Below are positions 34,920 through 38,751 of a stretch of 64,000 nucleotides of DNA, piece after piece. The position numbers and the translations under genes were made by a program. The notes below the pieces were generated by a model. That model was not told the origin of the DNA and made no database searches. It was given only the letters and a program-made list of their open reading frames with translations. Source of the stretch: an uncultured SAR86 cluster bacterium (GTDB taxonomy: Bacteria > Pseudomonadota > Gammaproteobacteria > Magnimaribacterales > AG-339-G14); assembly GCA_902526045.1 (NCBI GenBank), contig CABZJI010000002.1, forward strand, positions 1 through 64,000, given 5' to 3'. Numbering within the stretch: position 1 is the first letter of the stretch; each line of letters starts with the position of its first letter.

Positions 34920-36239
34920 ATGAAATTTCACCGCATAAACTTTTTACTTTTGCTCTTCCTATCTATTAATTTTTTATCTGCCTCTAGTTTTAGCGATGAA
35001 AGATTACAAAGGATTACGACCATGTTGGATGATCTTGTGGAGGATAAACAATATCCAGGCTTTGTGACTATCATTACCAAAGATGGTAAACCAATTTTAA
35101 AAGTCGTTAATGGATATAAAGACATCGATAATAATATTCCTATGACCGAGGATGCATTATTTAGAATTTATTCGATGTCTAAGCCAATCACAGGAGTAGC
35201 TTTAATGATTCTCGTCGATAGGGGCCTAATTGAATTAAGCGATCCTATTTCTAAGTTCATTCCTGAATTCAAAAATACAAAGGTTGTTAATGAGGCTGGC
35301 GATTTCTTTGATCTTGATAGATCAGTCACAGTCTTAGATGCAGCAACACATACCTCCGGGCTTATTTATGCATGGCTTCCTACTGAAACTATAGCTAATG
35401 ATATTTATGAAGAAAAAAATTTGCATCCATATTATTATCTAGATCTCGAAGTAACTGCCGATCAAACAGATTTTTCAATTCCTGCAGAAAAACCATTTTC
35501 AAATATTTGTGAATTTTCTCAAGAGCTAGCTTCTGCTCCATTAGTCCACCAACCTGGTGAAAAATGGACCTATGGTGTTGGTATGGATTTATTAGGGTGC
35601 ATTATAGAAAAAGTATCGGGCATGACCTTTGGAAACTTTATGAAAGAGAACATATTTGAGCCTTTAGATATGAAAGATACTGCTTTTGCTGTGCCTGAAT
35701 CAGAAATAAATAGGTTTACTAGTATGTACACTCACAAGGGAGCTAGCGTTGGTGATATTCAAAGAGAATTTAATGATGAAATTTTTCCTAACGACTTGAT
35801 TCTCATGGATTCTTACGAAGATAGTCCTTATTTGAAAATGAATAAAGTTGAAGATGGAGGCTCAGGTCTGATTTCAACTGCTGAAGATTATTTAAAATTT
35901 GGTCAAATGTTAAATGATAGGGGAACTTATGAAGGAAAGACCATTCTAAGTGAAAATGCTTTCGCAATGTTGTCTGGTAGTTATATGGAAGATTTCGGTT
36001 TGTTAGGTATTGTTAGTCTTGGAGTCGGACAAGCCATCTGTATGGCAAAGATAACTAATCCTGCGTTTAGTCAATATTATCAATCAGAGGGGAGTTTATT
36101 TTGGGGAGGAGCTGCATCTACAATTTTTTGGGCTGACCCTGTTGATGATCTAGTTTTAGTTCACATGACGCAAGTTCTTGGACATCCTGTCGATCTAAGA
36201 GCAGAGCTTGACAGACTTACATACTCTTCTAGAAATTGA
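34920..36239 (+). CDS. Exported serine hydrolase, beta-lactamase family (class C-like/esterase)
   Basis: A 439-residue protein from ATG 34920, with a signal peptide (KFHRINFLLLLFLSINFLSA). The penicillin-binding fold is shown by the nucleophile motif S-M-S-K in FRIYSMSKPITG, the second motif tyrosine in WTYGVGMDLLG, the domain text LSDPISKFIPEF and a C-terminal GGAASTIFWADP strand. Relatives include EstB-type esterases and D-aminopeptidases, so the substrate may be an ester or a peptidoglycan fragment rather than a beta-lactam. The open frame extends upstream, but the ATG before the signal peptide is the credible start. It overlaps recX by four bases. Confidence 0.85.
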   Translation: MKFHRINFLLLLFLSINFLSASSFSDERLQRITTMLDDLVEDKQYPGFVTIITKDGKPILKVVNGYKDIDNNIPMTEDALFRIYSMSKPITGVALMILVDRGLIELSDPISKFIPEFKNTKVVNEAGDFFDLDRSVTVLDAATHTSGLIYAWLPTETIANDIYEEKNLHPYYYLDLEVTADQTDFSIPAEKPFSNICEFSQELASAPLVHQPGEKWTYGVGMDLLGCIIEKVSGMTFGNFMKENIFEPLDMKDTAFAVPESEINRFTSMYTHKGASVGDIQREFNDEIFPNDLILMDSYEDSPYLKMNKVEDGGSGLISTAEDYLKFGQMLNDRGTYEGKTILSENAFAMLSGSYMEDFGLLGIVSLGVGQAICMAKITNPAFSQYYQSEGSLFWGGAASTIFWADPVDDLVLVHMTQVLGHPVDLRAELDRLTYSSRN

Positions 36240-36694
36240 GTAATATTGAAGACAGCTTAATTAGAAAAAAATTAATGGATTTTTTGTCTCGAAGAGAGCA
36301 TTCAAAAAAAGAACTTTTTAATAAGCTCTTTAAAAGAGTTGATAATTTGGAACTACTAAATCAAGAAATTAATAAATTAGCTAACGAAGGACTTCAGTCA
36401 GATGAAAGATTCTCAGAAGCATATATAAGAAGTAAAACACAGGCGGGTTATGGGCCCGTTAAAATTAAAATGGAGCTTGCTCAGAAAGGAATTTCAAATA
36501 ATTTTTTAGAAAAAAAATTTGCAGAGTTAAAAATAAACTGGGAAGAGGAAATAAACGAATTGCTGCAAAGAAAATTTCCTAAAACAAAATATAATTTTGA
36601 AGAGGAAACAATAAAAGCAAAGGCTATAAATTTTTTACAAAGAAGAGGCTATGATTTTGATCTTTGTTATAAACAAGTGAAAAGTTATTCATGA
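36236..36694 (+). CDS. recX: Recombination regulator RecX
   Basis: Modulates RecA filaments. The 152-residue helical protein has the RecX repeats: LMDFLSRREHSKKELFNKL, then DERFSEAYIRSKTQAGYGPVKIKMEL split near residue 60-80, and the third repeat KAINFLQRRGYDFDLCYKQ. The start is TTG within the stop of the preceding gene, and the end overlaps dnaX by four bases. RecX is usually beside recA; here it is next to dnaX-recR, and recA is not in the window. Confidence 0.9.
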   Translation: MSNIEDSLIRKKLMDFLSRREHSKKELFNKLFKRVDNLELLNQEINKLANEGLQSDERFSEAYIRSKTQAGYGPVKIKMELAQKGISNNFLEKKFAELKINWEEEINELLQRKFPKTKYNFEEETIKAKAINFLQRRGYDFDLCYKQVKSYS

Positions 36695-38151
36695 CCTATC
36701 AAGTTCTTGCTAGGAAATGGCGTCCAAATACTTTTGACGAAGTAGTAGGCCAAGATTACGTAGTGAAGGCCTTGAAAGGAGCATTGGATTTAGAAAAACT
36801 TCCTCATGCTTTTATATTTTCAGGGACAAGAGGGACTGGTAAAACAACTCTTGCCAGAATTTTGGCTAAAGCTATAAACTGTACCAGCTCAAAAAAGAAT
36901 TCCGAACCTTGTGGAAAATGTGATTCATGTTTATCCATCAAAAATGGTAGTACGATAGATTTTCAAGAGGTTGATGCCGCTTCTCGAAGAGGGGTAGAAG
37001 AAACCAAGGAACTGCTGGATTCTGTTCCATATTTACCAACATCCTCTCAATATAAAATTTATTTGCTTGATGAAGTACATATGCTATCAAAAGAAAGCTT
37101 TAATTCACTTTTAAAAACATTGGAGGAGCCCCCAGAACATGTAATTTTTTTATTCGCTACTACAGAAATAGATAAAGTTCCACCCACGGTCCTTTCAAGA
37201 TGCGTTCAATTTAATCTTTCTGCCATGAAAGCAGAAATCATAAGTGATCAACTGAAATTAATATTTGATAATGAGAAAATAAAATATGACGAAGGTTCAC
37301 TTACAAAACTTTCTAATCTTGCTAGAGGCAGCATGAGAGATGCCTTAACCCTTTCTGAGAAAGTCATTTCATTTTCAGAGGGAAAAATTACAGAAAAAAA
37401 AGTTGAAGAATTAATGGGACTTCCTTCAACTGAGCTTATTCAATCTCTACTAAAATCAGTAATAGAAAGAGATTCAAATATGCTTGTACAAAATATTCAG
37501 GAGGTAAAATCAAATTTTTATGATCCTGAACAGATATTGATTGATCTTTTATCTCTTATGCAAGAAATTGCTTTATCTCAATTTAACGACAAAATCGATC
37601 AATCTGATTTTTTTATTCAACCCCAACACCTGCAACTGATTTACGATCTAGGAATCTCAAATTTAGAATATTTTAAATTATCACCTAAACCAGAAAGTTT
37701 ACTCACGATGACTATGCTGAAAATGATTGCTTTCCTTCCAGAAAGTTCAAAAAAAAAACCTTTAAATTCTAACAAAAATAAGATTGATTTTAATTGGCCT
37801 GAAGATTTTTCAAACCTTGATTTGACAAAATTAACTGCTCAACTATTGTCACATGCATCAATGATTGAGCTTCAAGATTCAGAAATACACTTTGGCATCA
37901 ATCAAGAAAGGTTGAATGTAATTACAGAAAGTCAGACTAATGAAGTCGAGGAAGCTTTATCTGCTTTGCTAAAAAGAAAAATGAAAGTAACTTTCAAAAT
38001 CTCTGATTTAACAGATAATCCATTTGAATTTGAAAGAATTAAGTCACAACAGGAATCAAAGCAAGCAGAAGATGATCTTAAAGAAGACTCTTCATTGAGT
38101 GAAATGCTTGAAAAGTTTGATGGCAAAATTAAAAAAGTTTCAAAAATTTAG
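36691..38151 (+). CDS. dnaX: DNA polymerase III subunit tau/gamma DnaX
   Basis: Clamp-loader ATPase. Residues 1-80 read as in the family, with Walker A GTRGTGKTT (45-53), zinc cysteines in INCTSSKKNSEPCGKCDSC, then LLDEVHMLS (Walker B) and the arginine-finger segment VLSRCVQF. Domain III ends at MTMLKMIAFLPES (about 352). A short tau part (357-486) follows, with EALSALLKRKMKVTFKI near the end. Total 486 residues, against 643 in E. coli, mainly because domain IV is almost missing. A run of ten A at 37749-37758 lies exactly at the domain III/tau border; slippage by one base in either direction ends the protein at residue 357 or 360, a gamma-like form. Confidence 0.95.
   Translation: MTYQVLARKWRPNTFDEVVGQDYVVKALKGALDLEKLPHAFIFSGTRGTGKTTLARILAKAINCTSSKKNSEPCGKCDSCLSIKNGSTIDFQEVDAASRRGVEETKELLDSVPYLPTSSQYKIYLLDEVHMLSKESFNSLLKTLEEPPEHVIFLFATTEIDKVPPTVLSRCVQFNLSAMKAEIISDQLKLIFDNEKIKYDEGSLTKLSNLARGSMRDALTLSEKVISFSEGKITEKKVEELMGLPSTELIQSLLKSVIERDSNMLVQNIQEVKSNFYDPEQILIDLLSLMQEIALSQFNDKIDQSDFFIQPQHLQLIYDLGISNLEYFKLSPKPESLLTMTMLKMIAFLPESSKKKPLNSNKNKIDFNWPEDFSNLDLTKLTAQLLSHASMIELQDSEIHFGINQERLNVITESQTNEVEEALSALLKRKMKVTFKISDLTDNPFEFERIKSQQESKQAEDDLKEDSSLSEMLEKFDGKIKKVSKI
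37749..37758 (+). other. Ten-A homopolymer, candidate slippage site in dnaX
   Basis: The ten A encode the end of Ser353 and Lys354-356. Loss of one A gives ...K-N-L-stop after residue 357; gain of one A gives ...K-K-T-F-K-F-stop after residue 360. Both products would consist of domains I-III only. In Thermus a nine-A tract in dnaX produces gamma by transcriptional slippage; use of this tract is inferred by analogy. Confidence 0.5.
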
Positions 38152-38751
38152 ATGAATTTTAGTCCATTACTTTCTGACTTAATTAAATCTTTGCAAGTTC
38201 TCCCAGGAGTTGGGCCAAAAACTGCTAAACGAATGGCAATGAGTTTATTGGCTGGTGATCATGTTGAGGCCAAAAATCTTGCTAATAATCTTTCCAAAGC
38301 AATAGATTTAATTGGTGTATGCAATAACTGTAGGGTTTTATCGGAGGATGAGATTTGTTCCATTTGCAAAGATTCTAATAGAGATAGGACACAAGTTTGT
38401 GTAGTAGAAAATACATCCCAAGTTGTACAAATTGAGGAACTAGGAGGATTTAAGGGAATATATTTTGTTTTAGGCGGATATCTATCTCCAATTGACGGCA
38501 GGGGTCCAAATGAAATAGGTTTATCAGAACTCTACTCAAAGGCACTGAGTGGGGAAACAAAAGAACTTATCTTGGCCTTTAATTCTTCTCTTGAAGGAGA
38601 GGCAACTGCTCAATGTATACTTGAGAAATGTTCATCAAATTCTTTGAATATTACTAAACTTGCTCAAGGTGTTCCTCTAGGAGGAGATCTGAACTATGTT
38701 GATTCGAATACTTTAAGACACGCGTTTGATAGCAGACAAAAGCTAATTTAG
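38152..38751 (+). CDS. recR: Recombination protein RecR
   Basis: Works with RecF/RecO to load RecA on gaps. The 199-residue protein has the helix-hairpin-helix LPGVGPKTAKRMAM near residue 18-31, a four-cysteine zinc finger CNNC...CSIC (about 56-71), and the Toprim domain beginning CVVENTSQVVQIEE and including YFVLGGYLSPIDGRGP. The ATG follows the dnaX stop without a gap. The ybaB/ebfC gene that usually lies between dnaX and recR is absent. The end overlaps the opposing M20 gene by nine bases. Confidence 0.96.
   Translation: MNFSPLLSDLIKSLQVLPGVGPKTAKRMAMSLLAGDHVEAKNLANNLSKAIDLIGVCNNCRVLSEDEICSICKDSNRDRTQVCVVENTSQVVQIEELGGFKGIYFVLGGYLSPIDGRGPNEIGLSELYSKALSGETKELILAFNSSLEGEATAQCILEKCSSNSLNITKLAQGVPLGGDLNYVDSNTLRHAFDSRQKLI

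Follow-up and report, generated by a model that had tools for sequence, protein, structure and literature searches.

The dnaX gene of an uncultured SAR86 cluster bacterium carries a run of ten A residues (A10) at the junction between the part common to the gamma and tau subunits of DNA polymerase III and the part specific to tau. Judged from the sequence and its conservation in relatives, the run is very probably a programmed transcriptional slippage site of the Thermus type, from which tau would be made together with a gamma subunit of about 357–360 residues. The gene lies in a window of 64,000 nucleotides, the whole stretch of DNA analysed here; the genome assembly is 1.2 Mb in size and 93% complete.

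The dnaX gene and the A10 tract

The features of the locus, with their positions in the window, are as follows.

36,691–38,151, + strand: dnaX, DNA polymerase III subunits gamma/tau, 486 aa (open reading frame (ORF) list, Pfam, alignment with E. coli DnaX)
36,691–37,731, + strand: domains I–III (AAA+ ATPase, lid, gamma domain III), to residue 347 (Pfam PF13177, PF22608, PF12169)
37,749–37,758, + strand: putative A10 slippage tract (sequence; A9–A11 in related SAR86 dnaX genes)
37,763–37,765, + strand: TAA for mRNA with one A less (or two more), last residue 357
37,770–37,772, + strand: TAA for mRNA with one A more (or two less), last residue 360
37,792–38,136, + strand: tau domain V (alpha-binding), residues 368–482 (Pfam PF12170, E = 1.8e-12)

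The gene order is recX–dnaX–recR, with recX at 36,236–36,694 and recR at 38,152–38,751. The genes are packed head to tail: the dnaX start lies over the recX stop in a 4-base overlap (ATGA, 36,691–36,694), and the ATG of recR directly follows the TAG of dnaX (38,149–38,152). Given this tight dnaX–recR spacing, slipped mRNAs might alter the coupling to recR.

Residues 1–351 of the window DnaX align with residues 1–362 of E. coli DnaX (E = 7e-90), and the gamma chains in the PDB, 368–373 aa in length, align over domains I–III. Gamma domain III, as delimited by Pfam, comprises residues 233–347; the alignment of the second domain with residues 522–636 of E. coli tau is weak. Domains I–III are predicted to be common to tau and gamma, and domain V to be confined to the unslipped product. 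Residue 351 pairs with E. coli residue 362 and residue 368 with E. coli residue 522; at residues 353–368 (37,747–37,794), about 160 residues found between domains III and V of the E. coli protein are absent from the SAR86 tau of the window's family. The DnaB-binding domain IV appears, from these alignments, to be missing from this tau, which is just 486 aa long. Named SAR86 records are 83–86% identical to the window DnaX across the whole protein.

The tract runs from the third base of codon 353 to the end of codon 356 in the 486-codon ORF (TCA AAA AAA AAA CCT), between gamma domain III, which extends to residue 347, and tau domain V, which begins at residue 368. The initial annotation had placed an A10 run after domain III, with stops soon after it in both shifted frames; the Pfam domains and the E. 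coli alignment confirm the first statement and the sequence itself the second. The loss of one A leads to SKKNL followed by TAA, and the gain of one A to SKKKTFKF followed by TAA. Tau is encoded by a single uninterrupted ORF and is the zero-frame product, requiring no frame change.

During transcription, the hybrid of nascent RNA and template over the ten As would realign, and the number of As in the dnaX mRNA would fall or rise. Full-length tau would be made from unslipped mRNAs, or from those in which the number of As has changed by a multiple of three; translation of the other mRNAs, in either shifted frame, would meet a stop after a few codons and yield a gamma-like subunit of about 357–360 residues, consisting of domains I–III without the alpha-binding domain V. 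Since window residues 1–351 correspond to residues 1–362 of E. coli gamma and solved gamma constructs have 368–373 residues, a product ending at residue 357–360 would be a complete clamp-loader subunit lacking the tau-specific part. We infer that the slippage occurs by RNA polymerase rather than mainly by the ribosome, and that the gamma formed is stable and used.

Tracts of this length are scarce: a pattern search of the whole 1.2-Mb genome found just five A10/T10 tracts. The run statistics rest on this search and on the 64-kb window, in whose ORFs there are five sense-strand runs of at least nine As versus 6.8 expected, a non-significant depletion, and no T runs of at least nine versus 4.2 expected. 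The deficit of A runs provides no independent support for slippage of the SAR86 RNA polymerase at nine As. The earlier remark that long homopolymers are avoided inside essential genes is thus only weakly reflected in the window and is borne out more clearly by the pooled SAR86 dnaX genes, where runs of at least nine As away from the junction are rarer than expected under synonymous shuffling (7 versus 29).

Conservation of the tract across SAR86

Searches at the genus, family and order levels, with loci located by tblastn, yielded 107 SAR86 dnaX loci; 102 are intact (ORF >450 codons), from 21 genera in four families. Most of these genomes were assembled from metagenomes, where homopolymers may be given the wrong length. 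A run of A9–A11 is present at the same alignment position in 101 of the 102 intact genes and in 20 of the 21 genera (A9 in 35 genes, A10 in 63 and A11 in three), and all 66 runs of at least ten As in these genes are at the junction. Two other A10 tracts of the same genome served as controls; the one in a glycerophosphodiesterase gene (L138, codon 211) is reduced to A8/A5 within the genus, and the one in a 146-codon ORF (L134) to A7/A5.

The length of the run is kept in all three codon registers. The tract starts at codon position 3 in genus g1 (TCA AAA AAA AAA) and mostly also in family f4, at codon position 2 in genera g2–g4 and nearly all of family f2 (CAA or GAA AAA AAA AAT), and at codon position 1 in family f3 (NNT AAA AAA AAA G). 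In f4, the leading codon is TCA, TTA, GTA or ATA (S, L, V, I), the final A always being kept. The codon preceding AAA AAA AAA in f3 (L042–L061) always ends in T, although the residue it encodes varies (S, T, V, P, H, Y, N, A, L), and in consequence the run has exactly nine As in 18 of 19 genes. The tract is therefore retained while its surroundings drift, with both amino acids and register changing. Interrupted A tracts, which would have told against the initial annotation, were not seen among these relatives: the one intact gene without the tract, L058 (G162, family f3, genus g20), has no lysine run at the junction either. The absence of the tract from L058 indicates that it can be lost and that gamma is not indispensable.

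A lysine-rich linker might be kept for the sake of the protein (for example, for DNA binding), the A run being a by-product of the preference for AAA in AT-rich genomes. Two or three lysines do recur at the site, and the probability of a run of at least nine As, given the protein and the codon use, is 0.26–0.64 per genus. This explanation is nevertheless very unlikely. The peptide at the tract varies (SKKK, QKKN, EKKN, VKKK, KKKV) while tract length remains constant, and AAA is used in excess at the lysine columns 354–356 (93–100%, versus 61–84% at nine of ten other Lys-rich columns). Identity at fourfold sites between genera is 0.34–0.36 versus 0.32–0.33 expected; these sites are saturated, so the genera count as nearly independent, and the probabilities, multiplied over 20 genera, come to about 10^-7.5. 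Nor does selection on the protein predict the constraint on stops in both frames described below, and the junction A9 also occurs in genes of 54–71% GC outside SAR86. Chance was considered as well: in a single genome, the tract is unremarkable given the peptide SSKKKP (probability about 0.57 for the window's genus), and it is the order-wide conservation alone that rules chance out.

Three assembled genes lose the reading frame precisely at the tract (L063 with A11, L081 with A8 and L105 with A10) while their sisters, with A10, A9 and A9, are in frame; assembly error and real variation would both produce this pattern. Such genes are what would be expected of a contingency locus at the DNA level, where replication slippage toggles tau in populations by phase variation. 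This is extremely unlikely: of the 106 assembled genes extending beyond the tract, 103 keep the reading frame through it, the three cases are explained by homopolymer errors in metagenome assembly, and tau is expected to be essential, given that in E. coli only tau is essential, according to Blinkova 1993 as cited in PMC11253446.

Constraint on stops in the shifted frames

In 98 of 101 SAR86 genes, the stops of both shifted frames are no more than 12 codons from the tract, the farther of the two being at a median of 4 codons, versus 10 for the gene as a whole. Compared with synonymous shuffles of the downstream codons, the farther stop has a rank of 0.21, and it is closer than the shuffles in all 20 genera (20/20 with rank <0.5; Wilcoxon p = 2e-6); compared with the downstream linker, its rank is 0.16. 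Runs of A6–A8 elsewhere (n = 371), used as a control, give a farther-stop rank of 0.497, that is, no effect. Relatives devoid of nearby shifted stops, the other finding that would have spoken against the initial annotation, were thus not seen.

Taken singly, the stops of both frames are nearer than in synonymous shuffles over 20 genera, with the frame reached by losing one A (–1A) more constrained (p = 2e-4) than the frame reached by gaining one (+1A; p = 0.0017). The proximity in single frames is modest (ranks 0.32 and 0.39) because AT-rich genes have off-frame stops every 4–7 codons anyway, and it is the joint measure that carries the signal. A –1 ribosomal shift needs the +1A-frame stop alone, whereas a change in the number of As in both directions needs both stops. 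A tract of at least nine As in all registers, accompanied by both stops, is the Thermus pattern, and it is this combination that points to programmed transcriptional slippage.

Tests for signals of ribosomal frameshifting

Poly-A can also make ribosomes slide, and they might generate the short product by shifting to the –1 frame on A_AAA_AAA, in the manner of E. coli dnaX but without stimulators. An in-frame A_AAA_AAA is present in all registers, the –1 frame stop (which is that of the +1A frame) is, as given above, somewhat nearer than expected, and just one tRNA-Lys (UUU) was detected among 30 typed tRNA hits of the 93% complete assembly. A single tRNA of this kind is permissive for slippage on A_AAA_AAA/G and thus for a ribosomal contribution. 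The tract ends in an AAG codon in 12 of the 101 SAR86 genes; in the window, which reads A AAA AAA AAA CCT, there is no in-frame A_AAA_AAG.

Other observations make –1 frameshifting unlikely as the source of the short product. Seven bases would be enough for it, yet 9–11 are retained; lysine codons at the tract are rarely AAG (13, versus 239 AAA), even though an AAG end is more slippery in E. coli (PMC5009743); and the more constrained stop is that of the other frame, which is irrelevant to a –1 shift. The E. coli-type stimulators are also absent. The Rfam model RF00382 has no match in the window up to E = 10, where Rfam as a whole gave nothing beyond sub-threshold chance matches, nor does RF00382 match any of 16 SAR86 and other loci, the positive control, E. 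coli dnaX, scoring 96.8 bits. An upstream Shine–Dalgarno-like motif is missing from 86 of 101 SAR86 genes and is longer than 4 nt in two of the 101. Downstream of the tract, no stem–loop signal was detected over 100 genes (mean MFE –3.9 kcal/mol, mean z –0.12 versus shuffled sequences); the corresponding region of E. coli dnaX has an MFE of –19.7 kcal/mol. The initial annotation had named Thermus and E. coli as precedents; transcriptional slippage of the Thermus type fits these results, and the E. coli type does not.

Other Gammaproteobacteria

The survey of the class comprised 120 dnaX genes from other gammaproteobacterial genomes, taken evenly over the class without a tree. A9 or A10 occurs in 18 of the 120, in every case beyond domain III, past codon 358. 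At codons 350–430 there are 16 runs of at least nine As versus 5.5 expected under synonymous shuffling, and there are none in domains I–III (codons 1–349; 126 kb). In 17 of the 18 genes tau is encoded in one frame, and here the farther stop has a mean rank of 0.17 (p = 8e-5). A9 occurs at the junction in genes of 54–71% GC, and some tract-bearing genes of 55–71% GC have both stops near; in one dnaX gene of 71% GC, both stops lie within 7 codons versus a gene median of 79, and a congener at 70% GC has kept A9 and both stops amid diverged sequence. These genes of 70–71% GC (L285/L310, L309) have A9 and both stops near where off-frame stops are very rare. The tract is not universal, being absent from three relatives of G323 and one of G318.

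A reversed arrangement was observed in L197 (G345) and L131 (a Legionellales MED753 MAG), where a zero-frame stop directly follows A9/A10. In these genes the rest of tau is open in the +1A or –1A frame, and tau would therefore need a slip.

Whether a poly-A slip tract is a general route for making gamma in Gammaproteobacteria, repeatedly gained or anciently inherited, is evenly balanced on these data; such a route would be fixed in SAR86, found in roughly one-seventh of the other families sampled and reversed in a few lineages. If so, selection for making gamma would extend well beyond what the enterobacterial frameshift implies, and tract length would possibly tune the tau:gamma ratio.

Comparison with known systems

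The mechanism proposed here is already known from Thermus; that it is fixed across the SAR86 order and recurs in the class appears to be unreported in the literature searched, which is no proof of novelty (one collection was searched, and no paper treating both dnaX and SAR86 was found in it). According to a review (PMC3290774), frameshift signatures are missing from dnaX in most bacteria, which may produce tau alone. The present results point to selection for a second DnaX product across a marine order that is abundant, uncultured and has genomes of around 1.2 Mb, and, outside it, in scattered members of the Gammaproteobacteria; they bear on whether most bacteria make gamma and on the purpose of gamma. 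Baranov and colleagues (PMC1088944) noted that truncating slippage is hard to prove comparatively, as it provides no new coding sequence to compare. The retention of tract length across registers, combined with the constraint on both stops, is a comparative test usable for such slippage.

Poly-A frameshifts are also described in dnaX of Blochmannia (PMC3017870); they lie away from the junction, within the tau region, and were rejected as examples of the same device. In Caulobacter crescentus, gamma is produced by proteolysis of tau, as cited in PMC5009743; the outcome is the same as that proposed for SAR86, gamma from dnaX, but the Caulobacter route, as cited there, is post-translational and does not involve a slippery tract. 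The two-ORF dnaX genes found with GeneTack (PMC3711429) have a poly-A of about 10 at the junction and a predicted transcriptional realignment. Tau needs a slip in those genes, whereas in the window it is the unslipped product; the reversed arrangement of L197 and L131 resembles the two-ORF genes.

The –1 ribosomal frameshift of E. coli dnaX (RF00382) acts in the same gene, at the same place, and gives the same kind of short product, consisting of domains I–III. Unlike E. coli, SAR86 lacks the combination of A6G heptamer, Shine–Dalgarno sequence and stem–loop, and both stops, not one, are constrained. In Thermus thermophilus, gamma arises by transcriptional slippage on a run of nine As, and stops are present in both frames (Larsen et al. 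2000, as reported in PMC5009743 and PMC1088944). As in that description, the SAR86 genes encode tau in one ORF, have at least nine As at the gamma/tau junction and have near stops in both other frames. They differ in belonging to another phylum, in usually having A10 and in using three codon registers; of the two, it is Thermus in which, according to these sources, slippage has been demonstrated experimentally.
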